The notes beneath the pieces were generated by a model, which did no database searches, was not told the origin of the DNA, and saw only the letters and a program-made list of their open reading frames with translations. Position numbers and translations under genes: made by a program. This document shows, piece by piece, positions 5,227-56,189 of a stretch of DNA of 64,000 bases (position 1 is its first letter; every line of letters starts with the position of its first letter). This stretch comes from Pseudovirgaria hyperparasitica (lineage: Eukaryota; Ascomycota; Dothideomycetes; Acrospermales; Acrospermaceae), in assembly GCF_010093815.1 (NCBI RefSeq), contig NW_022985553.1, forward strand, positions 1,757,939 to 1,821,938, given 5' to 3'.

Positions 5227-5281
5227 ATGTTTAATTGATCACCCTACATCAGCAAATCCCTTGTACGCGATGTCACTCTAG
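5227..5281 (+). promoter_or_regulatory. two minimal upstream ORFs before the transporter
   Basis: ATG TTT AAT TGA (5227-5238) and ATG TCA CTC TAG (5270-5281) precede the ATG at 5344. Each encodes three residues. If the transcript starts at the upstream TATA, a scanning ribosome meets both first, so translation of the transporter could be damped. This is inferred from position only. Confidence 0.35.
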
Positions 5282-5343
5282 TGGCTCACGTTGTATCATC
5301 TCGCCCACTGTTCCCTGGAGCCCTGCTATCTCATATACTCGCA

Positions 5344-9962: not shown

Positions 9963-10394
9963 AGATCATCCTTGATGGTCTCGAAGTCTCGAAGTCCTAA
10001 GAAGAGGTGCTACAGAAGAATTCTAGAGACCCCCTCTAGTTCATCGTGCATCCTGCTCATCGCCATCTCGCTACTAAATGGGGTGGTATACGCAGGAGAT
10101 CTTCACGTCTTCGCTGTAGGCAAATCGTACAGGTATCGCAACCGTCATGCAAGGAGCAATCCCAGGTGATCGAAGCACGCCACTTACTAAATCCAAACTA
10201 TGAGAAAGGACATAATTTCTTGGTGAGACGGTCAAGTGAACGCGGAGGTAGCTCCTGCCAATATGTATTCACTAGAAACACTTTCACCACACTGTTAGCC
10301 ACTGTTCAACAATATTAGAAACTAGTTCAACCTGGTCCGTGGGACTTTGCTCACATGTTACCTCCCAAGCGAGTGATCGAACATCATCTTCACA
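9963..10394. other. intergenic region
   Basis: Nothing is supported here. Base composition is normal. Short open frames at 9972-10318 lack the third-position C bias of the flanking genes. Confidence 0.5.
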
Positions 10395-15540: not shown

Positions 15541-15858
15541 GGTTAGGACGGATAATAAGATAGAGGAGTAGCTCTATAGTTCTAGCTCTATATATTAGCT
15601 CTATACCTAGCTCTATATATTCTAGATCTACTATAGATGGTGCGCGCCGGCTCTATTTACCTAGCATTTATCCGTTTTAGTCCTTTTTAGACCGTTTAGA
15701 TACCTATTAGCTAGTTTCTAGTAATTTAATTCTTAACTTAATAATATTATATGTACGCTCGCTTAGCTTATAACTATCGGTTTCTATATTCTAATTTTCC
15801 TTAAGTCATCTAAGTATGGGCACCGTATATAAATTAGTTTATCTCTATAAATTCTATT

Positions 15859-18900: not shown

Positions 18901-21300
18901 ATACTCGAAGTATCTATAACGGGTCCTAAACGCCGTTTTCTACTTATCGCCCTTCTTAATATATAGGCGGTAGTAGATATCGCGTAGATCGAGCTTAGTA
19001 AAGATCTTCACGCGCCCTAGTCTATTAATAGACTTAGAGATAAGAGGTAGTAGATAATAATTCTTTCGTGTAATATTATTTAGGCTACGGTAGTTAATAT
19101 ATAGACGGAGACTCCTATCCTTCTTCTTTATAAAGAGGATTAGAGCTCCGGCTAGAGATATACTAGGCCTAATCTATTCTCGTGTAAGGTTCTTTTCGAT
19201 ATATTCTTAGAGGACCTATAGCTCGGGTTCTAATAGAGGGTAGATAGGTCCGTATAGGGGTTATTAACCATCTTCAAGGTTAATAGTAAGGTCAGTAGAT
19301 TAGTATTAAGGTAATTCGGACGAGTCGATCGCTAACGCGATATATTAGTATATTTTATACTAATATAGTAGGTTTTCGTCTACTTTAATACTAAGCTCTC
19401 TATTTTAAGTAAGTAAGAGGACGTAGATAGCGGAGATTACCTTTTTATAGTCCTTCTAGAATTATTCGTCGTTGACTAGCTATACTAGATTCTATTATAG
19501 TAGGTACATACGCCAGCCAGCTGTTTTCTAGATGAAGTCTAGTTTCGGGTTATGTTTTTCGAGCTACGGTATACCGAGAATCATGTTAAAGGGACTATCT
19601 ACCACGATAAAGGTTAAGTAGTAGGGTTTCTACTTCCCCCCGCTATCCTAGATACTATATTTAATAGTATAGGTACCCTATAATTTAATAGAACCGTCGA
19701 TACTATAGAAGGTAGTATCTATTAGTACTTAAATATCGACGTTAAGTTCTCGTACTCGTTAAGTTAATATAACGTTAGTAGCTAAACCGCTATTAAGTAT
19801 TATAGTCTAATGTTATCCATGAGGGACCTCGATAGGCCTAGCCTATAGTTTAATATACTAGTTAGCTAGTTATCCCTCTATTTTAGTTACGCCTATAAGT
19901 CGCGAGGGTTCCTTATAGATAGTTAGTTTTTTATATTATATACCGGGTAGTTAGGCGCGATATGTCCTAGCTACTAGTACTTATAGTATATAACTAACTT
20001 AGTATCTATATTAGTATTCGGTAGTTTCCCTAAGCGGCACTCGGGTACTATATAGCCTATCCTACTATAGGTATAGTAGGTAACTTTAGGTTATTTATAC
20101 GAGTCGTTTCTCGCGTCTCGATATATCGACTAGTAGAAAGATCCGTAGTACGGGCCTCGTCTTCTCGAGTTCGTAGAGTAGTAGCGCCTACGAGGTATTC
20201 CGCACGATCTATTACTAAACCGGTCCTCTTTAGACGATTTTATATCGGATTAGATTAATAGGGATAGTCGTGCGCCTATACGACGTTAGTTATTTATTAT
20301 ATACTAATATCGTTCTACGAGATTCGTGAGTGCCTAAAGGTTAGTAGAGATAGATATTATAAGGTCGATACGTTCCTTTACGCTTGGGTTAAGGGACCTT
20401 TTAAAGTCGTCGTATTATCGAACTATACAATCTTCCTTAGCTTCTCTCTAAAGAGGTCGGAGGTATTCAAGAAGTTATAACGGGGATTATCTCTCTCGCT
20501 ATTAAGTCTTAAAGATATGGCTCTAAGCCTATTTACGTCGCTCGGCTCTATTACTAAAGTATTAAAGAAGGAATTTAGTAAACGTGTTCTAGTTATACAC
20601 ATCCTTAGGGTGTTTAATTCGATGTACTATCTAACGTTTAGATGGCGTTAGGTCTAGGTAGTTCTATACGAACCTAATCTTATTACTATCGTTCATGAAT
20701 AGATAGAAGAATCAGCTATACTAGTAAGCCTATTTATAAAAGCTCCTCCTGGTTTTACCGTCGAAGTAAGGTAGTTTCTTAGGCTAAGGTAACTAGGATA
20801 GTAATAGACTTAGTTAGACTGTTTCGGCTTAAGTTAATCTATATTAGTATAGATTAGTTACTACTAGTACTAAAGCGCGTAGTACGGCTTCAAGTCTAGC
20901 GGTTTATCCTCACGCTTCGTCAAGTTCACAAAGTTACTACTCAAGCTAAGCCTAACGCTACCTCTCCGTGTATAGCTTAGTATATATATTATCGTAAGGC
21001 GTGGTTAACGTTAGTCGGTTCTAACGAATTAATTCGTTAACGTTAATAGGGTCTAGTCTTATAGTAAGGATAGGTCTAGTATAGTATAAACTAGACCGCG
21101 ATAGAGTATAATAGACTCCTTCCTTATTATCTAGGTAATCTTTCACGGTTATATAGAATACCGTACTAGTTATTAGTGCGATAGCCTATAGGGTATACTT
21201 ATTAGTGGAGGTGGTTATAGAGAGACTATTCTCTTCGTTTAGATTTAGAGAGAGTCTCTTATATAAGGTAGTACCACGGGTATTATAGCGCGTAGTAGGA
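15950..21300 (-). pseudogene. Gyp-1 gag-pol relic
   Basis: Assigned by colinearity with Gyp-3. Chromodomain at about 16245-16400, integrase core about 17000-17350, RNase H about 17700-18250, RT about 18500-19220 (the YLDD box near 18793-18804 now reads Y-L-N-N), protease region about 19550-19750, gag about 19800-21300. Dozens of TAA/TAG codons. Some domains stay recognisable because GC-rich codons without CpA survive. Confidence 0.8.
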
Positions 21301-22556: not shown

Positions 22557-23890
22557 ATATCTAATACTAGTCCTATTTCTAAGCCTACCTCCTCCTCTCG
22601 TAAGACTTACTCTAAAGAGATTATCTCTACCCCGGCTATACCGACTAAAAAATCTACTTATTATAGTAGTATAAAGGCGCGCTCTAAGTTAGAGAAGAAG
22701 GTAGCTAAGGCTACTACTACTATTACTACTAATATAGCCACTAGTTGCTCTAATCTAGGTAATTCTAGTACTAGTATTACGGAAGAGGTAGCTATAAAGC
22801 CTATCTATACCTACTTGCGCCGCCTATCTACTCTATTTTCTTTAGAGGATAAAGAAGATCTTATTATAGATAATAATTAAGAGTTTACGTCTTCGCCGCC
22901 TCGCTCTAAACACCGTTCCTCTTTTTAGTCTAATATAGACCGACTTAGTTACTCTAGGTCCTTTTAGGACCTTAATATTTACTCTAAACCTAGCCCTAGT
23001 AATAATAAGGTCTAGGTCGCCGAAGATACTAAACGTAGTTATAGTTTACGCTATAGGAAAACGGCGAACTACGGTTTAATATACTTTAAGTATATTAAGG
23101 CTCACGCTACCGGCTCTAAATATCTCTTCCACTCTAACTCTAGTATTAGCTACTACTCTACTAACTACGACGGGCCTATATACCTAATCTTTAAGCTCCC
23201 TATCTACTACCGCCGCTATACTATCCTTAGTAAAGTTTATCTTTAGGTAAGTCTATTAGGCTATTTTAGTCTAGGGTAATCTAAAGTCGTCCATGCTAAT
23301 ACGTTTTTAGATTTCTATTTATATATAAGATATATATAACGATCTTCGCGTCCGCGAGACTCTTAGTAGTTCTAGCAGTTACCTAGCTTCTATACGTAGG
23401 GAGTTTAGAGAGTACTATAAGCTCTTCCTAGAGGTTATTAAAGTATAAGTTTAGAAACCGTTAATTATTATTAACCTTAGCTTATAATTTTTAGTCGCCG
23501 CGAGATTCCTAGCGCTTAGACTACCTATTCTAGGGAGTTGGTTTTAGCTACTAAGGCCGTAGAAGAGATTTATACTATTTCTTTCCGCCCGCCTTATACT
23601 ACTAACGGGTCTTATAAGAGATCTACTAGTTCTCCTTCTAAGTTACCTTATAAGAGGGTATATATTCTATTCTAGATTATTCTAGACCGTGTTAGCTAAC
23701 TTTAGGTCTAATCGCTCCGCTCTAGCGCTTAGTTATTATCTTACTAGGCTCTAACTAAGCGCGTGGTTACTCTAGAGGATAAGGTCTCTAACCTCCGTTA
23801 CTCTATTACTTAGTTAGTTCGTTCGCTATACTCTAAGAGTAATAATAAGATAGAGGAGTAGCTCTATAGCTCTATTTACTAGGGTTTCTA
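22557..23890 (+). pseudogene. Gyp-2 antisense gene, spliced
   Basis: Start codon now ATA at 22557. Exon 1 22557-23246 (690 bp), intron 23247-23310 (64 bp; GTAAGT donor intact, GCTAAT branch, TTTTTAG acceptor), exon 2 23311-23444 (134 bp), intron 23445-23494 (50 bp; donor mutated to ATAAGT, acceptor TTTTTAG), exon 3 from 23495. Exon and intron lengths equal those of Gyp-3. Breaks are TAA/TAG codons. Confidence 0.72.
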
Positions 23891-30263: not shown

Positions 30264-31023
30264 NNNNNNNNNNNNNNNNNNNNNNNNNNNNNNNNNNNNN
30301 NNNNNNNNNNNNNNNNNNNNNNNNNNNNNNNNNNNNNNNNNNNNNNNNNNNNNNNNNNNNNNNNNNNNNNNNNNNNNNNNNNNNNNNNNNNNNNNNNNNN
30401 NNNNNNNNNNNNNNNNNNNNNNNNNNNNNNNNNNNNNNNNNNNNNNNNNNNNNNNNNNNNNNNNNNNNNNNNNNNNNNNNNNNNNNNNNNNNNNNNNNNN
30501 NNNNNNNNNNNNNNNNNNNNNNNNNNNNNNNNNNNNNNNNNNNNNNNNNNNNNNNNNNNNNNNNNNNNNNNNNNNNNNNNNNNNNNNNNNNNNNNNNNNN
30601 NNNNNNNNNNNNNNNNNNNNNNNNNNNNNNNNNNNNNNNNNNNNNNNNNNNNNNNNNNNNNNNNNNNNNNNNNNNNNNNNNNNNNNNNNNNNNNNNNNNN
30701 NNNNNNNNNNNNNNNNNNNNNNNNNNNNNNNNNNNNNNNNNNNNNNNNNNNNNNNNNNNNNNNNNNNNNNNNNNNNNNNNNNNNNNNNNNNNNNNNNNNN
30801 NNNNNNNNNNNNNNNNNNNNNNNNNNNNNNNNNNNNNNNNNNNNNNNNNNNNNNNNNNNNNNNNNNNNNNNNNNNNNNNNNNNNNNNNNNNNNNNNNNNN
30901 NNNNNNNNNNNNNNNNNNNNNNNNNNNNNNNNNNNNNNNNNNNNNNNNNNNNNNNNNNNNNNNNNNNNNNNNNNNNNNNNNNNNNNNNNNNNNNNNNNNN
31001 NNNNNNNNNNNNNNNNNNNNNNN
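30264..31023. other. assembly gap (760 N)
   Basis: Run of undetermined bases. The missing 5' part of Gyp-2 would be expected here or beyond. Confidence 1.
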
Positions 31024-31849
31024 ACCATCTAACTTTATTTTAATTTAAGTATCGGTCGGGGTAGATAGACTACTAGTTAAGGTAGCTATAACTAGGGATA
31101 ATAAGTTAGTAATAGACTTATTCATACTACACGTATATATACTATCATTTACCGTTCCCGTAGTTACTTAGAGCGGGTCTATACTTAATACCCGAGATAG
31201 TATAATCTTATCTGTAGCTACTACTAGTGGTATAGAACTCTTACCTATATCTAATAGCGCATAAGATGATTCGAGGTACTTATCTAACTAGTTTAGAGTA
31301 TCCGACTTATCCTTTTCGTAGTAGTTAGTACCTATATAGTCTCTATAACTTTAGTATATACTTATATTACCCGATAGCTTAGACTCCTCGCTCTCGTCTA
31401 AGTCATCTATATCTACTTTAGAGAAGTTATCTAGGTTATCTTTATATAGGTTTATATATATAGTATCTAGGTTAATTAGTATTAGTACTATAAATACCAA
31501 TACTATTAGCGATTTTTAAATGTAGTCGATATGGTAGGGCGCCTAGTTTAACTATATTAGGCTTAGCGCTCGCTATTCCTCTATATAATTTAGCACGCGA
31601 TTAGATAAAGGTATATATATATATACCTAGTATTAGTAGAGAGCGTGCGAATCTATAGCGACCGAAGGACGAGTTCGGCGCCTACCCGCTACTATATTCG
31701 TTAAGGGCATGCCTTATTATAACATATATAATAGTAATCGTAGATGGTAGGATTAGTCGGAACATACTACTATAGTACTCCTTTAATCCAAGGAATCTTA
31801 GGGACTATAGTAGAACCAACTTTAGAGCCTTAATTACTACTAGCCCTAC
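31024..31849 (-). pseudogene. unidentified RIP-mutated coding relic
   Basis: On the minus strand, about 31030-31480, a frame broken only by TAA/TAG reads an acidic stretch (V-D-I-D-D-L-D-E-S-E-E-S-K-L-S-G) followed by L-D-K-Y-L-E-S-S. I do not recognise it with confidence; the acidic and L-D-K-Y-L pattern vaguely recalls hAT transposase C-termini. The remainder to 31849 is featureless AT-rich DNA forming the left flank of Gyp-3. Confidence 0.35.
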
Positions 31850-32089
31850 TGTCAGGGCTGACACCAGGATGGACTCAACTGGACCACTATGGTCTAGTAC
31901 GGTCCGTGACAGGTGGACCTAGGTTAAGCCAGCTAGAATAAGCGAGACCACTATATAAGTAGGCCGCACATACTTGATTCCTACTCTTTAGGAATCAACC
32001 TCGTTAGGAGAGTAGACTACCCTTTTAAATATATTCCCGAATCCTCCTATGACCTATTAGACTACTATCCTACGTCTATAATCCTTACA
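31850..32089 (+). repeat. Gyp-3 5' LTR, 240 bp
   Basis: Begins TGTCAGGGCTGACA and ends ATCCTTACA. I could not identify a tRNA-complementary primer binding site just after it. Confidence 0.9.
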
Positions 32090-32130
32090 TTTTAATTCCT
32101 CTTTATATAGCACGACGGTAGTTTATAGGA

Positions 32131-33660
32131 ATGGCTCTAACCACTCGTCATAACACTCGTGGCACCGCCTCTTATGGTAGACCTTCTCCCAACCTAAATG
32201 AGGAGAATAGTCTACCTATAACTACCCCCACCGATGACCACACCTTATAGGCCATCGCACCGATAACTCGCACGATATTCCGTGTAACTATAGAAGATAT
32301 TATAGAACACGAGGATGGAGTCCATCATACTCCATCTCGGTCTAGTTCGAACCATACTAGACCTAACCTTAACACGAGGCTAGACCTTGTTAACGTTAAT
32401 GAGTTAATCCGTTAGAATCGCCTAACGTTAACCACACCTCATAACGACATGTATACTAGACTACACGAAGAGAGGCAACGATAGGTTTAACTCGAGTAAT
32501 AACTACGCGAACTCGACGAAGCTCGAGGACATACTACGAGACTTAAAGCTGTATTACGCGCTTTAGTTCTAGTAACGACTAATCTATATTCACATGGACC
32601 CATACCAACTAAAACGATCTATCCTAGTCCACTACTATCCCAATTGCCCCGACCTAAGAAACCACCTCACTTCGATAGTAAAAGTAGAAAGAGTTTCCAC
32701 GCATAGGCTTACTAATGTAGCCGATTCTTCCATCTATTCACGAACGACAGCGATAAAATTAGATTCGCCTAGAACTACCTCGACCCGACGCCTTTAGAAC
32801 GTTAGATGGCACACCGAATTAAACATCCTAAGGATGCCCATAACTGGGACACGTTCACCGAATTTCTCCTCTAATGTTTTGGCGACAGGGCTGAACGACG
32901 CGACTAGGCCTAGGGCCATATCTTCGAGACTCGACAACGAGATAATTAGTCACCGTTATAACTCCTTAAATACCTTCGGCCCCTCTAGAGAGAAGCCGAA
33001 GAAGATTATATGATTCGATAGTGCGACGACTTTAAACGGTCCCTCGCCCTAAATGTAAAGGACCGTCTCGACCTTACAATGATAATCCCTATAGACCTCT
33101 AAGCTCTTATAAACCTCGCGGAGCGATACTAGCGCATAATGAATAATTAACGCCGCGCTGGTGTACGACTATCCCTAACGATCTAATCTAACGCAAAATC
33201 GTCTAACTAAAACCGATTTAGTAATAGATCTCGCGGGACGTCACGAGGCCACTACTACGCCTCGAATTCAAAACCACGCGGATCGTATCGTGGATCTCCC
33301 TACTAATCGACACATCGAGATGCGAGGACCGACTCGCATAAACGATCTAAAGTCACTTACTATACCTATGGTAGAATAGGCTATATAGCACCTAAGTGCC
33401 GTTCGGGGAAGCCACCGAGTGCTAATATAACTAACTAACTAGTCATATACTATAAGTGCCAGTAGCTAGGACACATCGCGCCTAACTACCTAGCATAGAA
33501 TATAAAAAACTAATAGCCTACGAGAAACCCTCGCGACTTATAGGCGCGACCATAATAGAGGGGTAATCCTCTAAATAGTACATTAAACTATAGGCTAGAC
33601 CTATCGAGGTCCCTCGTGGATAATATTAGACTATAATACTCGATAGTAGGTCGGCCACTA
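32131..33660 (+). pseudogene. Gyp-3 gag
   Basis: One frame from ATG 32131 (M-A-L-T-T-R-H-N-T) runs through the gag capsid-like domain (about 32806-33130; W-D-T-F-T-E-F-L-L-*-C-F-G-D-R-A-E-R-R) to a CCHC zinc knuckle at 33448-33489 that reads Y-Y-K-C-Q-*-L-G-H-I-A-P-N-Y, its outer Cys codons turned into Tyr. In-frame stops are TAA/TAG, fitting lost CAA/CAG/TGG codons. The pol frame differs, so expression of pol would need a frameshift or a separate start. Confidence 0.82.
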
Positions 33661-33665
33661 ACGTT

Positions 33666-36600
33666 ATGTCGACCCAACGAGCACGAGAACTTAACGCCGA
33701 CATCTAAGCTCTAATAAGTGCCATGTTCCATGGCATCGACGGTCCCATTAAGTTATACGGCACCTATACCATCAAATACGGCATCTAGGACAGCGGAGGG
33801 AAATGGAAACTCTACTGCTCAACCTTCATCGTGGCAGACAGTCCCTTCGATATAATCCTAGGTATGCCATAGCTTAAGAAATATAACCCAAAACTAGACT
33901 TCCTTAAGAAGATAGCTGGCTGGCGTATGAACCCACCTTAATGGGAACTAGTGTAGCTTGTCGACGACGAACAATTCCAGAAAGATTGCGAAAAGGCGAT
34001 CTCTACTATCTACGTGCTCTCACTCACGTAAAATGGTAAGCTTAATATTAAAGTGGACGAAAACCTACTATATTAGTATAAAATGTACTAATATGTCGCG
34101 TCAGCGATCGATTCCTCCGAACTACCTTAATACTAACCTACCGACCTTACTATTGATCTCGAAGACGGCTAGTAACCTCTACATGGACCCATCTACCCTC
34201 TTTTAGAACCTGAGTTATAAGCCCTTTAAGAATACATCGAAAAGAACCTTACGCGAGGGTGGATTAGGCCTAGTATATCCCTAGCCGGAGCTCTAATCCT
34301 CTTTGTAAAGAAGAAGAATAGGAGCCTCCGTCTATGTGTTGACTACCGTAGCCTAAATAACATCACGCGAAAGAATTATTACCTACTACCTCTTATCTCT
34401 AAGTCTATCGATAGACTAGGGCGCGTAAAGATCTTTACTAAGCTCGATCTACGTGACGCCTACTATCGCCTTCGTATTAAGGAAGGCGACGAATGGAAAA
34501 CGGCTTTTAGGACCTATTATGGACACTTTAAGTACACCGTGGTCCCTTTTAGACTAACTAACGCGCCAGGCACCTTCCAAGCGTACATTAATAACGCGCT
34601 AGTAGGCCTACTCGACACGACATGTATCGTGTACCTAGATGATATCCTTATCTTCTTAGATAACGAGGAGGAGCATATCTAGCACGTACGTGCAGTCCTA
34701 GATAGGCTAGAAAAGCACAAGCTATACATCAAGCTATCCAAATGCGAGTTCCATTAGGACCATATTAACTTTCTTAGCTTCGTTATTACTAATCAAGGTA
34801 TAACCATGGAGAGAGATAGAGTTACTACTATTATGGACTGGCCTAAACTAAAATCCGTTCGAGATATACGTGTCTTCATTGGCTTCGCCAACTACTACCG
34901 AAAATTTATTAAACACTTCTCCCGTTTAGCCGCACCACTTAATACGCGTACTACTACCACCGACTCGTCCATTACGGTCTGTGGTAGACAGAAACAGTAT
35001 AATATCGAATCATAACCTATTAAATTAACTAAGGTCGAAAGAATATCCTTCGAGAAGATTAAAGAAGCATTCCTAACCGCCCTATTACTAGTGCACTTCG
35101 ACCCGACTAAACCTATTCACGTCGAAACTAATGTATTAGGATTTACAATCTTAGGTATACTCTCCTAGCCTAGACCAATAGAGTCTAAAAAGGTCTAATG
35201 GCATCTAGTTGCGTTCTTCTCGCGCAAGATGGCCGACGTCGAGACTAGATACACTATTCATGACCAAGAGCTACTAGTAATAGTAGAGTCGTTTAAGTAG
35301 TGGCGATATTATCTTAAAGGTGCCATGCATGACGTTGAGTTACTAACTAATTACTATAACTTAAAGGGGTTTATAAGCACGACGGTTTTAAATCGTCGAT
35401 AGGTTCGATAGGCTAAGTGGCTTATAAATTTCTACTTTATAATCTACCATCGACCTAGAAGTATAAACCCAGCTAATAGGATGTTAAGAAGACCTAACTA
35501 TGAAGAAGGCGCCTAGGATCATAGTAGCTATAGGGTCCTAGAGTAGCTGTAGGCCCAACTCTCAAGGACGAGGTTAGATAATAAGTTATCCGACGATTAG
35601 CGAGATGCTAACACCGATACCGGTAATCGAATTTATAAGACCGAAGCCGGTGACTAAAGACGCGGTACCGAAGTCCCCAGCGAGCCATTTATCGGCGCTG
35701 TTAGGGAGGGCGATAGTACCCGGCGTGTATGTTAAGTAGACCTCGCCTAGTTGATCGTGGATCTGTAAAAGACAGACCCGATAGTTTTGAAGTTGCGTAA
35801 AATGTAGCAAGATAGGTTATTACGGACCGAAGTGGACTATAAGTGGACCTTCGTGGACGGCTTGCTCCACTATGATGGAAAGTACTATGTGCCGATAGGT
35901 AACGCACGATTTACCGTAGTTAGCCGATACCATAACGCTAACCTAGCAGGACATTTCAGGTATGTACGCACCCTAAGCTCGATTCGTTAGTACTATTTTT
36001 AGGAAGATATGCCTAAGTACGTCGAAGAATAGATAGCCACTTATCCGATTTATTAAAGAACAAAGGCACCTAGGTATAAGCCATATAGGAACTTGCAGCC
36101 TCTACTAGTCCCCCTCTTTATATAGGAAGATGTTACTATGGATTTTATAGTTAACTTGCCTCCAAGCGAGATGCTTAGGATAAGTTATAATTCAATTCTT
36201 ATTATCGTGGATAGACTTATAAAGATATCTAGGTACGTCCCTATGTGGAAGACGATCACATTAAAAGAACTAGTACAAGTATTCTAGAATGAGATTATTA
36301 AGGTCCATGGTGTACTAAAAAGGATCGTTACGGACCGAGGGAGTACATTCACGTCCAAATTCTAGACGTCATTCTACGAAATGGCCGGCATGAACAGAAA
36401 CATGTTAATAGCATTCCATCTATAAATAGATGGTTAGACAGAGCGATAGAACCAAACGCTCGAGGCCTACCTTCGTGCATTCTACAATTTCGAACAAGAC
36501 GACTAGGCCTCTCTACTAAGTACAGCAGAATTCGCGTATAATAATAGTCGTTATAGTATAATAGGTGTCACGCCCTTCCAGGCGAACCTAGGACGTAGTC

Positions 36601-37200
36601 CAAGGACAGGTTTCGAACCTTACACGGTCTAGTTCGACCGAACGATAGATGTTAACGTCCACGCGTAGGAACTGGCGATTAAAATCTTTGAAACCGCACG
36701 TAACTATCGCGTAATGATCCAGCAAGCGAATGAGTCATATATAAAGTACTATAATAGGTTAGTTAAAGATCAAGCGTACGAGGAGGGAGACGAAGTCCTC
36801 CTTAACGTCCGTAATATACGAACGTCGCGAGTGAATAAAAAGCTCGATTATAAAATGGCTAGTCCCTTCCGAATCAAACGTCGCATCGGTATAAGAGCCT
36901 ACGAGCTCGACCTAGGAAACGACATAAAAGTCTATAACGTATTCCACGTCTTATTGCTTAAAAGGTTTCGACCTAACGTGTATAAATGCACGAACGTGCA
37001 ATTACACTCCATTATACCCTAAGATGGACCAGACGTGTACGAAGTGGACTATATTGTCGAACATGGGCTCGACGAGAACGGTGTCCAAAAGTATCGAATC
37101 CGTTGGAAGAACTGCACCGAGGATGAGGACACCTAGGAACCTGCGGTGCATATCTTAAGTGCCGCGATGGCTATATATAAACAGAGGTTATAGGATAACA
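33666..37200 (+). pseudogene. Gyp-3 pol: protease region, RT, RNase H, integrase, chromodomain
   Basis: Protease-like region 33666-33950 (I-I-L-G-M-P box; I cannot find the catalytic D-S/T-G-A upstream). RT about 34215-34900 with [11 protein letters not shown] and Y-L-D-D at 34632-34643. RNase H about 35050-35500 (F-F-S-R-K-M-A). Integrase core with first Asp at 36141 and second in T-D-R-G-S at about 36333. Intact integrase C-terminus 36714-37022. Chromodomain 37044-37190 (V-D-Y-I-V-E-H...R-I-R-W-K-N-C), which in this clade guides insertion to heterochromatin. Breaks are TAA/TAG. Confidence 0.88.
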
Positions 37201-37529
37201 CGTTACTACCGTAAACCTAGCGCCGTCGGGGCCGTTGTAAAAAGAAGAAGGATGCCGTGGAAAACGAAGTGTCGAATCACGAATCCTAAACGCACACTAG
37301 GAAAACTCTATAAGGTAGCCCTATAATTCAAGCGATGCACGGTTACCAAACGCGAAGAAAACGTAAACAACCGTTATAGGCACGCGACGCGACACATCAC
37401 AATAGAATAATATAGAGAAGTCTAGAATGGACTAACATGGACCATTACACACGAGAAGAACATGGGACCAAGAAACTAAAAAGGTACCCCACTACGGAAT
37501 TGAACTCGTGATATATAATACAAAAGGTT

Positions 37530-37575
37530 AGAGTACCCGAACTAATAACCACTGGGCCACTGGTTCGGGTGCTCT
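37530..37575. repeat. Gyp-3 hairpin between convergent pol and antisense gene
   Basis: Arms AGAGTACCCGAACTA and TGGTTCGGGTGCTCT, pairing along 15 bp with two G-T type mismatches. On the minus strand the loop carries TGGCCCAGTGG, a match to the RNA polymerase III A-box consensus; AGTTCAATTCC, resembling a B box, follows about 50 bases on, then a T-run. Confidence 0.65.
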
Positions 37576-37828
37576 AATATAATTTAGAGAGATAAACTAA
37601 TTTATATATAATGCCTACACTTAAGTGACTTAAAGGAAATCAGAACCTAAAATTCAATAGTCACAGAATAAACAAGAACGCATATAATATCATTAAGTTA
37701 AGAATTAAATTACTAGAAAACTAGTAGACGGGTATCTAAACGGTCTAAAAAGGACCAAAACGGATAGAAACCAGGCAGACAGAGCCAACACACACCACAT
37801 AGAAACCCTAGTAAACAGAGCCATAGAG

Positions 37829-39133
37829 CTACTCCTCCATCTTATTATTACTCTTAGAGCGCAGCGAACGAACTAACCGAGTAATAGAGCGACGGAGGTT
37901 AGAGACCTTATCCTCTAGAGTAACCACGCGCTCGGTTAGAGCCTAGTAAGACGACGACTAAGCGCCAGAGCGGAGCGACTAGACCCAAAGTTAGCCAACG
38001 CGGTCTAGAATAATCTAGAATAGAATATATACCCTCTTATGAGGTGACTTAGAAGGAGAACTAGTAGATCTCTTGCGAGACCCGTTAGTAGCACGAGGCG
38101 GGTAGGAAGGAATAGCACGAATCTCTTCTGCGGCCTTAGTAGCCAAAACCGACTCCCTAGAATGGGTAGCCTAAGCGCTAGGAATCTCGCGGCGACTGAA
38201 AATTATAAGCTAAGGTCAATGATAATTGACGGTTTCTAAACTCACACTTTAATGACCTCTAGGAAGAGCTTATAGCGCTCCCTAAACTCCCTACGCATAG
38301 AAGCCAGGTAACCGCTAGAACCGCCGAGAGTCTCGCGGACGCGAAGATCGTTATATGCATCTTATACACGAACAGGAACCTAAAAACGTATTAGCATGGA
38401 TGACTTTGGATCACCCTAGACCAAAATAGCCTAATAGACTTACCTGAAGACAAACTTTACCGAGGACGGTATAGCGGCGGCAGCGGGTAGGGAGCTTAAA
38501 GATTAGGCGTATAGGCCCGTCGCGGTTAGTAGAGTAGTAGCTGATACTAGAGTTAGAGCGGAAGAGATATTTAGAGCCGGTGGCGTGAGCCTTAATACAC
38601 TTAAAGCACATCGAACCGTAGTTCGCCGTTTTCCTATAGCGTAAACCGCGACCACGTTTAGTATCTTCGGCGACCCAGGCCTTATTATTACTAGGGCTAG
38701 GTTTAGAGCGAATATTAAGGTCCTAAAAGGACCTAGAGCGACTAAGTTAGTCTATGTTAGACCGAAAAGAGGAACGGCGTTTAGAGCGAGGCGGCGAAGG
38801 CGTGAACTCTCGATTATCGTCTACGACGAGATCTTCTTCATCCTCTAAAGGAGGTAGAGTAGACAGGCGGCGCGAGTAGGTGTAGGTAGGCTTTACAGCC
38901 ACCTCTTCCGCAACACCAGTACTAGGATCACCTAGATTAGAGCGACTAGTGGCCACGTTAGTGGCAACAGTAGTAGTAGCCTTAGCTACCTTCTTCTCTA
39001 ACTTAGAGCGCGCCTTCACACCACTACGATGAGTGGATTTTTTAGCCGGTATGGCCGGGGTAGAGGTAATCCCTTTAGAGCGGGTCTTGCGAGAGGAGGA
39101 GGCAGGCTTGGGAATAGGACTAGTATTAGACAT
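37829..39133 (-). pseudogene. Gyp-3 antisense gene: three exons, about 396 codons, unknown function
   Basis: Exon 1 39133-38444 (690 bp, ATG intact, M-S-N-T-S-P-I-P-K-P), intron 1 38443-38380 (64 bp, GTAAGT, branch GCTAAT, TTTTTAG), exon 2 38379-38246 (134 bp), intron 2 38245-38196 (50 bp, GTGAGT, TTTTCAG), exon 3 from 38195 to a TAG at 37829. Phases agree at both junctions. The first 128 codons are open. Order: Ser/Lys/Arg-rich N-terminus, Thr/Val/Ala stretch, acidic E-D-E-E-D-L-V-V-D-D, basic S-P-P-R-S-K-R-R, then C-F-K-C...S-Y-Y-S-T-N, probably once a C-x2-C pair on each side, and in exon 3 a heptad-like V-T-L-E-D-K-V-S-N-L-R-R-S-I. Two or three TAA/TAG breaks per exon fit RIP. Not a known gypsy protein; a nucleic-acid-binding role is inference. 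Confidence 0.75.
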
Positions 39134-39602
39134 CTATACACACACGTTAGCTGGAGATCTGAGAGTGGAATACTCGTTCAGCCTTAAAGGCGATTGAAGA
39201 AGCTGAATTAGTGACCGTAATAACGCGAATGGATTACATAGGACCAGCTCTAACGAAAATGGACCACTCTAGACCCGAACGGATCTGAACTGAAGGAGAT
39301 AGTATATGAATTAACGACTTACCTTAAGAGTAAGGTGGATGTACTAGAGAAGAAAATTTAGAATAAGAAAACTAAATATAAGCTTAGTTAATGTAGCGGT
39401 CACATGACCCGCGGAGCTACCTCCAAGGCAGCAGCTATAAAGTAAGGGATGAGCGCGTGTATAAATAAAAGTGAACTGGAGCTTAAGTTTACTAATGTAA
39501 AGACTATCGATAACGTCATATAGATTCAATTAGATGCGCGCATAAACATAACGCTTTTGGAATTACGGATTTGCGTGTAGCTAAGTGCTTTAGGGCGAAG
39601 CA

Positions 39603-39620
39603 TAAAAAGAAGAAGGATAT
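39603..39620 (+). other. polypurine tract of Gyp-3
   Basis: AAAAAGAAGAAGGA directly before the 3' LTR, the site where plus-strand DNA synthesis is primed. The same tract occurs in Gyp-1 and Gyp-2. Confidence 0.7.
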
Positions 39621-39860
39621 TATTAGGGCTGACACTAGGATGGACTTAACTGGACCACTATGGTCTAGTACGGTCCGTGATAGGTGGACCTAGGTTAAGC
39701 CAGCTAGAATAAGCGAGACCACTATATAAGTAGGCCGCATATACTTGATTCCTGCTCTTCAGGAATCAACCTCGTTAGGAGAGTAGACTACCCTTTTAAA
39801 TATATTCCCGAATCCTCCTATGACCTGTTAGACTACTATCCTACGTCTACAATCCTTACA
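39621..39860 (+). repeat. Gyp-3 3' LTR, 240 bp
   Basis: Begins TATTAGGGCTGACA (RIP form of TG) and ends ATCCTTACA, followed by the TSD CCTAC. Confidence 0.9.
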
Positions 39861-42036: not shown

Positions 42037-42260
42037 TGTAAGAATAGGGTTATTGGATAGTAGTATAGTTAGAACAATGGGGTGTATTCTATCATAGAAC
42101 GAATTACTACCGAACCCTTTCGGTAGGAATCCGAGAGTATATACATAAAGGGACGCTAATCTATCTAGTACGTGACTATTTACCGCCCTTCACGTTACCT
42201 TCTAACCCTATTAGCTAAGATACATATAGGTTAGGTCCTACCTAAGGCTAAGTCCTAATA
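42037..42260 (-). repeat. Gyp-4 3' LTR, 224 bp
   Basis: Aligns with the right LTR over its length apart from a small indel near its 60th base. Confidence 0.85.
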
Positions 42261-42744
42261 ATTATCCCTTCCCTCTAGGAAGCTACCCTTAGCGACCTAG
42301 ATCGTTACCTATCTCTATATCCCTATCCTAAGTCTCGTAAGACCTTAGTCGTTCTCTACGCTTCGTCTTAGATACTTACCGATATTCGCTAATCTAAGAT
42401 TTACACAAGCGTTTTCCTAATAAACTAGATTTTATCTATCTTAACTTCTTATAGAGGTAAGATTACCTAATTAGGCCTAGCGTATCACGTAATGTAATTA
42501 GGTAAGCCCAGGTACTACCTATATTAAAATCTTTTCTTAGAAATATTCCTTTCTTTAAAAAACTTCTTAACTCTTTATAGAGTTTTTTAGATTATTAGGT
42601 ATATCACCCGATCCTTATAGACATAGATTTATATAGATTTACTATAATTTAGTACGATTTACGCAATTTACTAATTTTCGTACCGTCCTTAGCTAGTAAT
42701 AATATAATTCGTAATAATCCGTATAAATTAATAATAATCTTAAT

Positions 42745-43227
42745 ATGGTTTCCCGAAATCTCGACACTCTAAAGTAATTAGCGCGGAAATAGGCGCCTTC
42801 GAATAATCCCTATCTTATATACGTTACTAATATATCGAAAGCCATTAATCTACCCCGACCTAGGCTAGGCTCTAATAATCTAGCTATATATTATTATGGT
42901 TATCGCTTTCCGTCGTATATTACTCACGGTAGTACTAAATCTATAATATACGGCACTTACATGACTAAGAAGCGTTATTACTTATAGGTATTTAAGTAAG
43001 TTCGAAGAACCTTACATAGATTTACTTATATCGGTATAGATTACTACTAGGCCTCTAGTAACCTCTACCGATAAGGAGCGTGGTACTACCAATCGCAACA
43101 CCTTAGAGAAGGCTTTCTACGAGCTATATACCTAAGGTAAGCGTTACGCCTAGGAGTACGATTCTAATAAGATCCGTAAGGATTTATCGGAATCTACTAT
43201 AGCTATTATTACTACGATTACTAGATA
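42745..43227 (+). pseudogene. possible antisense gene of Gyp-4
   Basis: A plus frame from ATG 42745 (M-V-S-R-N-L-D-T-L-K) stays open for about 160 codons apart from TAA/TAG, with no TGA. It lies between pol and the 3' LTR, the same place and orientation as the antisense genes of Gyp-1 to Gyp-3, but shows no obvious sequence similarity to them. In AT-rich DNA such frames can arise by chance, so this is tentative. Confidence 0.4.
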
Positions 43228-44049
43228 ATATCATTTTTCTTAAATCGTTATAGATTCTTACTAATATATATTAATCTCTATAATAGTACTAAAATCTCTA
43301 CCACTTTGGACTTCTTTCTATACACCGGCGATATTAGAATTCCTAGAAAAGGTTCTAGTAAAAAGGCTAAGGTTCCTTCCTCGCGCGTGCTAAAGAGCCG
43401 TAAATTTAGGGAAGATGGCTCTAATCTAGAAGTTTCTATACTAAAGGTATATGGTTCTATACCGATCGTTAAATCTTTTCGCTAATTTATATAATTCTTA
43501 GCGTGCCCGCGCCGGTCCGTCCCTCTCCGTCCCGGGTCCCGCCGCTCTATAGGTTTCTATAGAGGAGTTTATAGCTATAAGGCGCGCTATATAGAATTTA
43601 TAGCGTCGGAACGAAAGGCTAGAGACTTATGTTATAAAGCTCTATACTATGCTAAATAAGAACCAGCGGAAGGAATTAGATGCAACCATCGCGGTAATTA
43701 GTACTTCTACTCCTACTCCGACTTAATCGGTTTGGATCTACATAGATCGGTGCTAATATGTCTCTTTTGTCTGGCGTTTTTGGTTTTCCGGTGGATAGAT
43801 TGGTGCGAGTTTACATAGATCTACATAGATCTTCATATTTTCTTTTAGCTCTCTTAATTTTATCTTTCTTTGATAATAACTTCTTTAATCTCTTTAGTAA
43901 TCTATACCGATCTATACCGATCGGCACCGATTTTTAATGTCCATTTCTCTTAGTAAATCATTTTTCTAAGTCTCTTTTTTAGTTAAATTTTTAAAGTTCT
44001 AAGTTTGAACTTTCTAAGGAAGTTCCTTAATTCCTTAGAATGTTTTAAA

Positions 44050-47000
44050 GATCTATGTCTCTTTCACCTTCTTCCTTTTAGGCGGCCGTTCTCGGCGCCG
44101 AACTATACTAAAAAACATCGAATCGCCGTACTTTAGTATAATTCTCTACGATTCCGCGGCTTCCTTTGCTAATCGCTACTTATATACTAACATCGCTACT
44201 TTGCTAATGTTTATTATAGGTTCCCAAGTATCTTCGTTAGGATTATATCCTTTCTAATGAATTTTATATAGCTATATACTATCTTCGGCGCGTTACTAGC
44301 TAAGTATCTACTTAACTTTATAGATATCTATACCTTCTTACGTAACTACTTTATATAGTATCTATTTAGAATAATCTAGTAATAATAAGGTATAAAATGG
44401 CTCGAGAAGCGTAATATAGAATATATTATATATCTTTAACGTAGGAGGGAGTTATAACTCGTACGCCTAGTCATTAATTACACGAGTAATCTTATATAGA
44501 CCTATTATTATATAGTTAAGCTTCTTCTTTAGCCTAATACTACGAATATTCTTGCTATTTAGTAAAACTTTATCCCTAACATTAAAGATCATAGGTTTTC
44601 TACCCTTATCATAGTACGATTTACTATAATTCGTAGCATCTTATAGTAACTTTATAACGCTTCTTTACGTTTAGAATAGTTCTATAGTAATTTCTATTAC
44701 TTTAACGTTAGATCATTCTACTTTAAACTAAGTCCCTAAGAACTACATATTATGGTTCCGACCGAAGTTTACTTCGAACGGACTTACGTAGGTTAACGTA
44801 TATCGGCTATTATTATACGCGAATTCCGCGATATAGACTAACCTTACCTAGTTATCCTACTTATAGTTATAATATACGCGTAAATACGCCTCGACTATCT
44901 GATTCTACCGCTCCGTCTATCTATCTATTTATAGGTGGAATATAGTACTAAGTTTCCGCTTGATTCCTAGCGTATAGTAGAAATCCTTCTAAAATTTAGA
45001 CGTTATCTACGGACCTCTATCCGAAACTATACTATTTAGTATACTATAGAGCCGGACTACGTCACGGAGTAGTATATCTATAAGATCCGGTGCTTGGATT
45101 ATCTTCTTTATAGGGATGTAGTATAATATCTTCGTAAATCTATCTAGAACTATAAGTAAACTATTATAAATATGCCTAGAATACTTACTTAGGGGCAGAT
45201 CTATAATAAAATCCATCGATAATTCCTTCTATGCCTCCTTTAGCATAGGTAATAGCCTTAATTTGCTATATAGTAAGTATCTATATACTTTTATATACTG
45301 GTAAACGTTATACGTTTTTATGTAGTCTTTTATATATTTATAAAGACCCGGCTAGTCGTACGTCCTTCGGATTAAATCGACCGTTCTTATAACGCTAAAG
45401 TACCCTACTAACGCGTAATCGTACTATTCCCTTAAAATATCGATTCGCAAGCCGCCTTCCGGTATATAGAGTCGGCCTTAGAAGTAGATCGCGTCTAATC
45501 GTCGTTCCTACCTTAATAACCATAGCGGATCTACAGCGCTTCCTTTTATGCTTATGACTTTCTTTACTAATATATCGGAATTCTAGGTAGATTTAATTAA
45601 GTCTTCGAGGGTTTTCTTAGTTTCTTAGACGTTTATTTAGATTACTTAATACCCGCTCTAATTCCCGCGGAGAATCGCCGAAAGTGTTCTAGCTTCTAGT
45701 ATTCTATTAGATAACTAGTCTTATAGTATCTAAAGTATAGCATAGTCTAAATTACACCGACTATCTACGTCATTCTATAACGATTTCTTATAATCTTTAC
45801 GCCGCGATAGAGGATTAGCTTTATTCTCTCTTCTAGCTTTATATAAGATTTTAAAGTTAAATATTAACATCTACTTAGCCTAACGTACTTATCGGCGATT
45901 AAGGACCTTAGTCGATATAAAGTAACGTAGATTTATATAATCTAATAACAATTCGATCTAATATACGGAGCCTTCTAAATAATATTACCATTACTTAAAA
46001 CTCTTAACGATTACGAGTAGTTCCTAGTCGTGCGTGTTATAACGCGTCTCTATATCCGCTATTTTACGGGAAAAGAAAGCGACCGAGTGCCAGTACACCT
46101 TGTCTTTCGCATCTTTATATGGTTAACTAATAATTCTAGTAATTATAAATCCTAACGCGTTAGTTTTAACCCGAATATACTTCTCGGGATTAAAATACCT
46201 AAGAATCGGCGTAGTTATAAAGTAATTCTTTAATGATTGGAACGTATCTCGCGCTTCCGGCGTTAATAATATCTTAACCGACTTAGCTTTACGCTATACT
46301 CGCCTACCTATAGGGATTTTACCGCTATTCTCTATAAGTTTATTAAGCGGCGCCGCAATTCGTAAGAAGCCTATAATGAATTTATAATAATAGTTTACGA
46401 AACCTATAAATGTTCTAATTTAACGTATAGTAGTAGGTTCTAGCCATTCCATGATGGTCTTTACACGCTCCGGCTCTATTTTTAGGCCGCCATATGTCAT
46501 AATAAAGCCGAGAAACCTAACTTCTTATTAGTAAAACTTGCATTTAGATAATTTTACGTAGAGTTTATACTACCTTAGACGATTTAGTACCGATTTCACG
46601 TATTCTTTATGATCCTATATACTATTAGAGTAAATTAGTATATTATCGAGATAAACTACGTAAATTACGTCAAGTAATTCTACGAGTATAGTATTAATAT
46701 ATCCTTAAAACGCTCCTAGCGCATTTATTAGCCCGAATAGCATAATAGTATACTTAAAATAACCATATCTAGTCCGAAATGCGGTTTTCCACTTATCTCC
46801 GTAACGAATTTAAAGCCGGTAATATACATCTCGTAAATCTAGCTTCGTAAAGTACTTTACCTTCGTTAATTAGTCTAAAGATTTACTAACTAGCGGTAAT
46901 AGGTAACGATTCTTCTTAGTCACCGTATTTAGTATCTAATAGTTAACGCATAGACGTAAACTTCCGTCTTTCTTCTTCACGAAGAGAATAGGTATACTAG

Positions 47001-49100
47001 CCGATGATATACTACGACGTATCTAGCCTCTTTTAAGGTATTCTTTAATATATTTATAAAGAACTTTAAGTTCTAGTCTCGAAAGTAGGTAAAGTAGGCT
47101 ATAAGGGACGTCTACTCCCTCTTCGAGCTCGATCTTTAGCTTATATAGCCCGTGATTAGGGAGAAGTAACGCATCTCCTACCGAAAACATATCTACATAC
47201 TACGAATATACGTTAGGTAGCGTATCTTCGCCCCGATTATTACTATTATTCTCGTCTTTATCGACGATCGATAAGGACGTAAGATAGATTAGCGATAATC
47301 GGGTCCGCACGGCGAGGTTCCATGCCTCCTTACTAATAGTTATAACTTACTAGTATAATTTACTACGGTATTATCGGAACGTTAATGTCTTCTTCTAAAA
47401 ATCAAGGATAGGGTTTAGACGTCTAAGCTAAGGCATCCCTAGAATTATATTCTATTAGGTAATATTAGCCACGATAAATTTATTAGACATCTACTATTTT
47501 ATTATCTTCGAGTCATGAACTTCGTAATTCGTTATAGCTTTACCTAAAGTTCTAACTTTATGTCTATTAACTACGATAGTTCGGCTAACTTTACCGAGAT
47601 CGTACGATAATCTATACTCCTTTACGAGAATCGACGAAATATAGTTATCTTCTATACTAGTATCTACGAGGGCCTATATAGTTTTATTACCATTTACTAT
47701 AGATAACGATACTTTTAGTAATATTAGGTCTTTACTCGCCGGAAGGCGCTACGGCTCCTCCTAAGTATATATAATTTAGCTAAGAACGCGGTTAGGTCTC
47801 GTGTACTAGCCTATTCTTTTTTTAGATTCTTATAGTTAGGCGAAATATATCCTATTTCTCTATACTTATAGTAACGAAGTGCGCTATAATCCTACTATTT
47901 TACGATAGGCGTTATATTTAAGCCTATACCTTATCCTTTTCCGTGTTAAGAAGCACCGCCTCGATTATTTCGGTATCCTCTTAACGCGTTTCTACCCCGA
48001 TTTACACTCTTCTAGCACTAATCGTAGTAAGGTTACTCTTAATCGAATATATTCGATCGACCTCGTTTCTAACCCGTATAGGGTTCGTCGGTTTTACCTA
48101 GAGAGCCGCGTTTCTTAAGGATGCGGTAGCATTTATTAGCTTTCTTCTCTAATTCGTATAGATAGTTAAAACTTAATAATACTATTCCTAGTCTTTCGCG
48201 GATTAACGGAAGTAGTACTTCGCGAAACTAGAATATACGAATATTTTCCTATAGCGTAGGAATATTATCCTATAGGTTTTAGAGGTATTATAGTAGTTAA
48301 GTAGGTATCTAGTTCGGTCGTTATACCACGCTTCTTAACTTAGATAGTGCCTTTCTTTTACGTTCTCTATCCGTTCCGAGGGTGTTTAGTATAAATATAG
48401 CTAAATATTCCTAGGTTATCGTAGATAGTGGCTATACTTTCTTCTGTCTATCCTATTAATCGCGGGATTATAAGCCTAGGTATCGTTCTCCGAACGAAAT
48501 GCGTTATACTTTAGTAGAAAAGAGTAGAGAGTTATCGAGGAAGTACTTTTCGTAGTCTCTCTTCTAGTCTTTCTACTCCTTTTAGTTCTTCCCTATAAAT
48601 ATAGTTAGGTCTTTAGGTTTTAGTACACCTAGAGAAGGAGTAGGGTAAATCGGCAACGAAGCGGTCGGGTATACGGTGGATTATCGCAACTCTAATGGTA
48701 GGTAAACTAATTCCGCCTAAATTGGTGTAGGAAGTCGTCCACCTACTATCGTTCGGCGTAGTTCTTTAAGAGACTCCTTAAGTTCTTATCTCTTTACGAG
48801 GAGTTTCGTGCGTTCTACCTATTCTTTAAGAGTTTAAATCTCTCGAGCCTAATTCGCGACGTATTCCTAAAGTTCGGCGATGGTTTATTATAATACCTCG
48901 CGTAGCTCCGCCACGACTCGTTATCCGGCTTTATATTATTAGAAGTTACTCGGCGTATCTACTATTTCTTCGTCTAAAAGCTCCGTGATTCAGTCTAATA
49001 TTTCCACTTCTCGGTTAGAAACGGCCGGGATTAATACCGATTATAGAGGATCTCTATTATTTAATATAGTGTTACTTATCCGTATAGTGGATCGTGTCGA
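44050..49100 (-). pseudogene. Gyp-4 gag-pol relic
   Basis: Minus strand. The integrase core at 45007-45216 is an open stretch starting M-D-F-I-I-D-L-P and ending S-D-R-G-P (first and second catalytic Asp). RT lies at about 46350-47100; its active-site box at 46642-46653 reads Y-L-D-N, one RIP change from YLDD. A CCHC-like and gag region follows toward 48900. Interrupted by many TAA/TAG. Confidence 0.8.
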
Positions 49101-49158
49101 TCTTCTCGGTTCTAGTTAGACTATCTTAACTATAGTACTATATAGGGAGTAATTCGAA

Positions 49159-49386
49159 TGTAAGAATAGGGTTATTAAATAGTAGTATAGTTAGATAGAA
49201 TAATAGGGTGTATTCTATCACAGAATAAATTACTACCGAACCCTTTCGGTAGGAATCCGAGAGTATATATATAAAGAGACGCCGATCTATCTAGCACGTA
49301 ACTATTTACCGCCCTTTACGTCACCTCCTAACCCTGTTAGCTAAGGTACGTGTAGGTCGGGTCCTGCCTAAGGCTAAGTCCTAACA
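49159..49386 (-). repeat. Gyp-4 5' LTR, 228 bp
   Basis: Keeps TG at its start and CCTAACA at its end, less eroded than the 3' LTR. Confidence 0.85.
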
Positions 49387-49391
49387 AGTAA

Positions 49392-54440: not shown

Positions 54441-55679
54441 CGCTCTTCCGTGGATATAATACTATTTATATATCTTAGGTTTTCGGTTATTAGTTATATA
54501 TAGTATTATATATATGGCGGATACCTTACTAGATTTAGGTCTTTCGTCGATAGTATATAGGTACGCCCTAGTCCACTTAATATAGACGTAGTCGACGCTT
54601 TACCTACTTAAACGATAGATATTAATAACGACGCGACTAGTATATTTATCTATTATATTATTAGCTAGCTAACGTTATATTAGGAGAGTCGAGCGCCGCC
54701 GTCCCGCCTACTCTATCTATCGATATTAACATGCTAGCGATTATAACCCAATCGCCTTACGAATCGATATATAATACTAGTATACTCGAGAGTTCGAGCG
54801 AACGTATAAAAGTCTAATATTATATACTATTTAGGGCCGGGGAGGAAGCGCCTACCGGCGTAGTAGTTATTAAGGCGATAGTAGAAGTCTATATATAACT
54901 AGATATACTAAGTCCGCCTCCTTCTTATATGGTCCTATCGCTAGATAATATTACTAGTTTTAACATTATAGAAGAGGAGTTTATAGACACGAACCCATGA
55001 ATATCGGTATAACATTGGCTCGATAGTACGTATTATAGTATAAGGCAAGTTATATTTAAGCGGTAGTTAGACACGTACGCTAGTATACTAACGGATATAT
55101 AGTATCTCTACCATGAATAGAATAGGCAAGGCATAGCTAGTAATATCTTACTATCTAGAAGAGATAGTTACCGTAGAATTTGGGAGATAGGCTCGGCGTC
55201 TATAGTATTAGTATATTAGACGGTTAAACTTTTATATAATACTATTTACTTATACCTATATTCACCTAAGCCCTAATTCGATAGCCTTCTATAACGTACT
55301 ATATACTCGGTCGGTAAGCTACTAGACTTATATAATAGTAGCATACTACCCTACTTTATATACTACTTAAGCTACTATTACTTTAGCCTACGTTAATCTT
55401 AGCTTCCTTTAGTCGTCCCTATATTATAAAAGAAAACTTCTATAAACCTTTCCTCTACTTATCTTGGTTTTTAAACCTAAATCTTACCTTCTATACTTTA
55501 TTCCGTGTTAATCACGACTATATACGAACGCTACGTTAAACTCGACTCTATTAACCCTTAAGGTCTATTCTATATAATAGTTAACGAGGTCATATTTATA
55601 GTTCATAATATGGATTAAGAACTCGTTATATTCGGCGATGTTTAGGACTAGTCTACGCTTAACGTAATTAAGCCTTATG
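54441..55679. other. AT-rich region, contents not identified
   Basis: RIP-type DNA. A plus frame from an ATG near 54514 (M-A-D-T-L-L-D-L-G-L-S-S) has frequent TAA/TAG and no recognised motif. Nothing else can be supported. Confidence 0.4.
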
Positions 55680-56003
55680 TTTAAGCCGAGTCTCACGTTT
55701 AAGTCGAGCCTTACGTTTAAGTTAAGCCTTATACTTAAGTCGAGCCTTACGTTTAAGCCGAGCCTTACGTTTAAGTCGAGTCTCACGCTTAAGCTAATCC
55801 TTATATTTAAGCCGAGCCTTACGCTTAAGCCGATCCTTACGTTTAAGCCGAGCCTTACGTTTAAGCCGATCCTTATATTTAAGTCGAGCCTTACGTTTAA
55901 GCCAATCCTTATATTTAAGCCGATCCTTACGTTTAAGCCGAGCCTTACGTTTAAGCCGAGCCTTACGTTTAAGCCGAGCCTTACGCTTAAGTCGAAGCTT
56001 ACG
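55680..56003. repeat. 18-bp minisatellite, 18 units
   Basis: Tandem units of TTTAAGCCGAGCCTTACG and RIP-type variants; 324 bp is exactly 18 x 18. Being a multiple of three it leaves long open frames on both strands (six-residue repeats V-R-L-G-L-N on minus, F-K-P-S-L-T on plus). Which strand, if any, was coding is unclear. Confidence 0.85.
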
Positions 56004-56189
56004 ATACGACTACCATCTCGACCGATAATAAACCACTCGTCTTTAGTATACTTACTAGTAACTACCGTCCTAACGACGAGTATAAACTCAAGAAGGTCCA
56101 AAGTAGTAAGGCTCCCGTTCCTACTTATACTACCTATTAGATCTCTCTTATATAGGGCGATCTATAGTTAACCTTTAGAAATATCTATA

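Follow-up and report, generated by a model that had tools for sequence, protein, structure and literature searches.

A RIP-degraded antisense gene with a predicted four-exon structure in Ty3/gypsy chromoviruses of Pseudovirgaria hyperparasitica

In Pseudovirgaria hyperparasitica, a Dothideomycete of the order Acrospermales, three copies of one Ty3/gypsy chromovirus, here called Gyp-1, Gyp-2 and Gyp-3, each carry a RIP-degraded spliced gene that is antisense to pol and located in the region that separates pol from the 3' LTR. Alignment of the copies yields a gene model of four exons and three introns with about 378 codons. In our reading, which we consider quite probable, these elements possess a four-exon antisense third gene encoding a spliced protein of about 378 residues, likely a nuclear and dimeric accessory regulator, and the copies were broken by RIP afterwards. 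The regulatory role of this product, taken by itself, is a tentative proposal that we hold with less than even confidence. Moreover, the genome contains a second gypsy family with an unbroken antisense gene of comparable design, which codes for a protein with the Pfam domain DUF3716.

The Gyp elements and the structure of their antisense gene

The window, a stretch of 64,000 nucleotides on contig C5 of the 35.0 Mb host genome, contains all three Gyp elements next to host sequence; the gene at 6233-7459, for instance, is identical to part of a P. hyperparasitica peptide transporter. Gyp-3 spans positions 31847-39860 and is bounded by two 243-bp plus-strand repeats (D7) that are 95% alike, its 5' LTR at 31847-32089 and its 3' LTR at 39618-39860. 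The Gyp-3 pol frame (32895-37508, plus strand, opposite to the antisense gene) is free of TGA but interrupted by 75 TAA/TAG breaks. We classify Gyp-3 as a chromovirus because a reverse transcriptase core (PF00078, RVT_1) was found on the plus strand at 34305-34784 in a genome-wide search (C5:1792243-1792722) and because the later part of the pol frame contains a chromodomain (Chromo, PF00385; E 5.3e-9, above the cut-off, on a 56-residue piece). Gyp-1 and Gyp-2 are copies of the same element, the chromodomain having been scored on Gyp-3. They are oriented opposite to Gyp-3, as follows from the inverted-repeat pairs, from their antisense genes on the plus strand and from the Gyp-1 reverse transcriptase core on the minus strand (18652-19131; C5:1776590-1777069), opposite to the Gyp-1 antisense gene. 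No reverse transcriptase of Gyp-2 was present among the 150 matches scored in the genome search.

The window also holds a further gypsy-like element at 42066-49390, with 199-bp repeats that are 88% alike, a reverse transcriptase on the minus strand (46501-46980) and strong RIP mutation (TA/AT 1.55). A tandem array with an 18-bp period (17 overlapping matches) is located at 55601-56050, and a run of 760 consecutive N at 30264-31023 makes all six frames appear open there. An Rfam scan of the window gave nothing at the gathering cut-off.

The initial annotation had proposed a spliced antisense gene in Gyp-1, Gyp-2 and Gyp-3 with three exons and two introns. A common layout is indeed present in these three copies and across 72 genomic copies, and the exons and first two introns of Gyp-3 had been placed correctly, including their splice sites. 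On the minus strand of Gyp-3, exon 1 (38444-39133, 690 bp) starts with ATG and encodes a basic N-terminus, a variable linker and a Cys segment; it is followed by intron 1 (38380-38443, 64 bp; GTAAGT...CTAAT...TTTTTAG), exon 2 (38246-38379, 134 bp) and intron 2 (38196-38245, 50 bp; GTGAGT...TTTTCAG). The proposed third exon, in contrast, consists of two exons, namely exon 3 (38033-38195, 163 bp) and exon 4 (37829-37978, 150 bp), the latter encoding a basic stretch and a leucine zipper and ending at a TAG stop. They are separated by a third intron of 54 bp that runs from 38032 to 37979 (GTATAT...CTAAC...TAG, with CTAAC 16 nt before the 3' end). Since the length of this intron is a multiple of three, reading through it does not shift the frame, and the three stops inside it had the appearance of RIP damage. 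Of the nine internal stops in the three-exon model of Gyp-3, three are thus accounted for by intron 3, and the four-exon frame of 1137 bp retains six (2 TAA and 4 TAG).

The same seven-part layout was found on the plus strand for the antisense genes of Gyp-2 (22557-23861) and Gyp-1 (14259-15571), each with 10 internal TAA/TAG; in Gyp-1, a member of subfamily B, exon 1 measures 696, intron 2 49 and exon 4 153 bp. Canonical sites at every junction are found in Gyp-3 alone among the three window copies: Gyp-1 has AT at both donor 1 and donor 2, and Gyp-2 has AT at donor 2 and AA at the last acceptor. On the minus strand 5' of the Gyp-3 ATG, a stretch of 33 nt (39322-39290; GTAAGT...TTAAT...TTCAG) resembles a very short 5'UTR intron.

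Genomic copies, RIP damage and codon-level constraint

A search of the genome with the exon 1 protein (tblastn) returned 122 rows, some of which are pieces of one copy, and 72 copies were analysed, 60 with their flanks and 12 diverged ones as shorter pieces. Exon 2 measures 134 bp in 69 of the 72 copies, intron 1 measures 64 bp in 71 and has a branch-like CTAAT 15 nt from its 3' end in 69, and intron 3 measures 54 bp with CTAAC 16 nt from its 3' end in 67 copies each. The 50 bp previously given for intron 2 hold for Gyp-3 and for 35 of the 72 copies, but Gyp-1 and 35 copies have 49 bp. In 70/72 copies, exon 1 has a length divisible by three, which is weak evidence when taken alone because its length variants go back to few events in a stretch that is triplet-rich by eye. 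All four exons are in frame in 59 of the 72 copies. As the initial annotation had suggested, the introns survive amplification: precise intron loss was found in none of the 72 copies, the stretch being missing or misaligned in a few truncated or rearranged ones. The introns can outlast retrotransposition because the genomic RNA carries just their reverse complement, which is a consequence of the retrotransposition cycle and agrees with the lack of precise losses. The gene is also borne by the element and antisense to pol, as had been claimed, with the pol 3' end adjoining in 56 and an LTR in 56 of the 60 long-flank copies; as possession of the gene was the criterion for selecting copies, these counts describe an association rather than a presence in all elements.

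None of the 72 copies is without internal stops, the fewest being four. The initial annotation had described the breaks as TAA and TAG only, and this is borne out by the absence of TGA from the three window copies and by 563 of the 566 stops counted in the 59 copies that keep the frame (TAG 429, TAA 134, TGA 3; 22385 codons). In-frame TGA occurs 3 times, compared to 16 and 75 times in the other frames of the same strand and 12, 54 and 32 times in those of the opposite strand. A stop is present in at least one copy at 24 codon sites, 14 of which are hit in at least 5% of the 59 copies, and 12 of these 14 recurrent sites show a sense codon in some copy. Codon sites 236 and 283 carry a stop in 59/59 frame-keeping copies, which leaves the ancestral codon hidden at these two sites, where the gene model may contain a minor error. 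The RIP indices of the gene (TA/AT 2.16; (CA+TG)/(AC+GT) 0.48) differ from those of the host stretch 1-10000 (0.72 and 1.25), and the start codon has undergone an RIP-type change from ATG to ATA in 47 of 60 copies. In the same 60 copies, AT is found at donor 1 in 17 and at donor 2 in 48, with GT at donor 2 in 11. Because of these donor losses, which RIP can explain, normal splicing would be lost in most copies, and current splicing cannot be assumed. Judged by its pattern in the sequence, the damage looks like host RIP acting on the copies, mainly through TAA/TAG stops.

RIP produces only transitions, and for this reason constraint on the coding frame was assessed by counting transversions. 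The 60 copies fall into subfamily A (37 copies) and subfamily B (23 copies) with almost no transversions within each; they thus represent about two independent lineages, and the selection signal, being a comparison of A with B, is a modest one. The excess of third-position changes anticipated by the initial annotation was found between Gyp-3 (A) and Gyp-1 (B), where the first, second and third codon positions carry 20, 19 and 35 transversions (p=0.009). The same comparison for pol, used as a positive control, gave 31, 18 and 66 (p=1e-7). Introns differ between Gyp-3 and Gyp-1 by 14 transversions in 168 positions, similar to the third-position rate (35/379), and positions 1 and 2 together (39/758) show about half of this rate. 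Fixed differences between A and B in the three-exon frame amount to 15, 17 and 29 (p=0.015), and to 3, 4 and 8 (p=0.09) when the variable linker and the C-terminal end are taken out. This count covers 61 of the 72 copies (34 A and 27 B); L024, L041, L058, L063, L070, L071, L072, L074 and L075 were left out because they are truncated, recombinant or poorly aligned, and L069 and L073 also belong to neither group. The periodicity is weaker than in pol, which suggests that constraint at the codon level is present but lower, as fits an accessory gene.

The predicted protein and a second gypsy family with an antisense gene

The predicted Gyp protein of about 378 residues comprises a basic N-terminus, a linker that strongly differs between subfamilies A and B, a Cys segment of which the Cys codons can be converted to Tyr by RIP, and an exon 4-encoded part in which a leucine zipper comes after a basic stretch. 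The zipper leucines 343, 350, 357 and 364 and the hydrophobic residues at 347, 354, 361 and 368 are common to both subfamilies; at the next d position, 371, K or R is found. Nonsynonymous fixed A-B transversions affect none of the 8 a/d positions compared to 11 of the 22 other positions in 343-372 (Fisher p=0.014), in a test that was chosen post hoc, after inspection of the alignment. A site in the zipper region that differs by transitions, and of which the transversion is synonymous, is not counted among these 11. Going by the aligned sequences, the C-terminal leucine zipper is preserved between the subfamilies while the neighbouring positions have diverged.

Pfam searches on six rows of the Gyp protein returned weak matches of coiled-coil type, ATG16 (E 0.014) and Lzipper-MIP1 (E 0.037), in one of the six rows each; the first row had no match, a bZIP family was absent from the matches of all six, and two fragments of the Cys region matched no Pfam family. 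With the six-copy alignment A1, a PDB search gave one match at E 0.2. A large protein collection yielded no relative of the Gyp protein, neither with the spliced frame in its three-exon form (X at stops) nor with alignment A1 in the four-exon form. The host PTR2 transporter, searched as a control, obtained 2928 matches in this collection, many of them fungal, which indicates that fungal proteins are contained in it. IMG/VR scans gave no match. DUF3716 was considered as the identity of the Gyp protein and rejected, as none of the five genome-wide PF12511 matches falls on the listed Gyp antisense copies and the Cys fragments do not match.

No intact homologue of the Gyp gene itself emerged from the protein searches or the 72 copies, but another gypsy family of this genome carries an unbroken antisense gene. 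On contig C36, the genome reverse transcriptase search identified an unbroken frame of 1451 codons. On the 3' side of this pol frame (locus L081, G000:C36:47500-53000), we modelled by hand a gene of eight exons and seven introns that reads through 627 codons without a stop (L081 582-2824, plus strand; junctions at 649-698, 804-849, 1075-1133, 1356-1405, 1748-1798, 2225-2282 and 2450-2494). Its last acceptor (AAG) is weaker than the others. The gene lies between pol and a 134-bp LTR repeat, the two repeats (C36:47680-47813 and 56755-56888) being 99% identical. The element appears young, and its pol is open as well. The encoded protein matches Pfam DUF3716 (PF12511) at E 5.4e-7, above the cut-off, and a PDB search with the C36 exon gave no match. 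Exon 6 was found at 8 genomic places, comprising C36 itself, six places with internal TAG/TAA and one stop-free piece of 58 residues; at least two of the six stop-bearing places have a reverse transcriptase encoded on the other strand some 4 kb away (C13:34078, C14:839644).

The C36 gene resembles the Gyp gene in being antisense inside the LTRs and in having several short introns, a charged N-terminus and a Cys-rich segment, and differs from it in its eight exons, its 627 codons and its unbroken frame. Homology between the two proteins was tried and not detected (hhalign probability 0.2). As they are not detectably related, it is the design and not the protein that recurs in one genome.

Other DUF3716 matches were found elsewhere in the genome. 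One of them, at L082 (G000:C2:2008000-2014000), is a minus-strand match whose neighbour is an open frame of helicase type that by eye resembles Pif1/Helitron; upstream of the match, a charged ORF on the minus strand may represent its N-terminal exon, and no pol-sized frame was found in this 6-kb stretch. A confinement of DUF3716 to the neighbourhood of gypsy pol is consequently unsupported, and the domain may not be restricted to gypsy elements. A third match, with one TAG, is located at C58:3340-3501 (L083, G000:C58:1200-8500). A literature search for DUF3716 found no paper.

Possible origin and role, and relation to known antisense genes

Under the reading that we prefer, an antisense transcript would have its start 5' of the ATG, either in the 484 bp adjoining the 3' LTR or in the LTR itself, and splicing, restricted to this transcript, would yield the protein of about 378 residues. 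The product would then enter the nucleus, dimerise through its zipper and regulate the element, and RIP would later break the copies, mainly by TAA and TAG stops.

Several other explanations were weighed. The antisense transcript might work as an RNA: by pairing with the genomic RNA, it would supply RNA interference or hold down the element's own copy number, and the reading frame would be a relic. Antisense RNA of LTR elements may act in this way according to the discussion in part of PMC7264820, and all 72 copies are broken, but the codon periodicity of the transversions and the conserved heptads speak against it, introns have no clear use in a double-stranded RNA role, and the gene of the second family is open through eight exons; we give this explanation a low probability. 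A different origin would be the backward capture of an intron-bearing host gene by an ancestral element, after which the gene would have remained a passenger without function for the element. Introns are expected in a host gene, and the DUF3716 gene next to the helicase-like frame, with no pol-sized frame in its 6-kb stretch, is in line with such a history. On the other hand, the Gyp gene is present in both subfamilies and its zipper is constrained, and capture may well be its origin without passenger status, so that mere passage has little probability. Chance, finally, could create an open-looking frame with fortuitous splice signals in RIP-mutated DNA, where TGA is scarce in all frames. Yet the gene frame has the fewest stops of all six (566 compared to 1071 to 4313 in the five others) and the fewest TGA, each of its three introns has a donor, a branch-like site and an acceptor, and transversions show codon periodicity; chance is accordingly disfavoured and has hardly any probability.

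An antisense gene at this place was already known from plant elements and from Boty of Botrytis cinerea. The initial annotation knew of no description for fungal gypsy elements, but the passages that cite Zhao et al. 2011 (Virology 417:248; cited in PMC7264820, PMC4227169 and PMC8365987) describe brtn as an extra gene of Boty-like elements, antisense and situated between pol and the 3' LTR. Compared through the title of that paper and these citing passages, brtn and the Gyp gene share an LTR element of a filamentous ascomycete as their carrier and an antisense gene at the same place. The plant aORF-3R genes (Grande gene23, RIRE2, Retand, PvRetro13), as presented in parts of PMC7264820, are likewise antisense coding genes at this place, and the Gyp gene takes the aORF-3R position, between pol and the 3' LTR and antisense to pol. 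The same parts of PMC7264820 report a nuclear product for Grande gene23, with transcription driven by a promoter that lies upstream of this gene. For Retand, 97% of the clusters studied have antisense ORFs with a TRP28 domain (PF04195) according to the relevant part of PMC11963269; these antisense proteins differ from the Gyp protein, in which no such domain was found, and the hosts are plants in one case and a fungus in the other. The word 'intron' does not occur in PMC7264820 or PMC11963269.

Spliced antisense products are described for HTLV, namely HBZ and APH, in the passages on these viruses in PMC10186651, where HBZ is said to possess a C-terminal bZIP and to reduce expression from the 5' LTR. 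The Gyp gene resembles HBZ in being antisense and, going by its splice signals and frames, predicted to be spliced; in contrast, its basic stretch is by eye not a canonical bZIP basic region, and no sequence relation is shown. The likeness to HBZ and to Grande gene23 would hence be one of place and design, not of descent. A literature search by titles and the beginnings of abstracts found no paper on a multi-intron antisense gene of a fungal gypsy element. The multiple introns, the zipper and the link to DUF3716 look new, as far as brtn can be judged from its title and citing passages.

A broader proposal is that fungal gypsy elements repeatedly took up intron-bearing host-type genes in antisense orientation, in which the genomic RNA would not lose the introns by splicing, that their spliced products are nuclear regulators of HBZ type and that DUF3716 is partly such a family; we regard this as on balance unlikely at present. 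The roles of antisense accessory genes in LTR elements are undetermined according to the part of the review PMC7264820 that concerns them. Together, a RIP-hit multi-intron antisense gene with a zipper and an unbroken one bearing DUF3716, an uncharacterised Pfam domain, provide a concrete and testable fungal case, and its interest lies in the second family, with its unbroken gene, and in the conservation of the zipper. Moreover, the retained introns are a natural marker that tells the strand read as mRNA from the strand read as genome.
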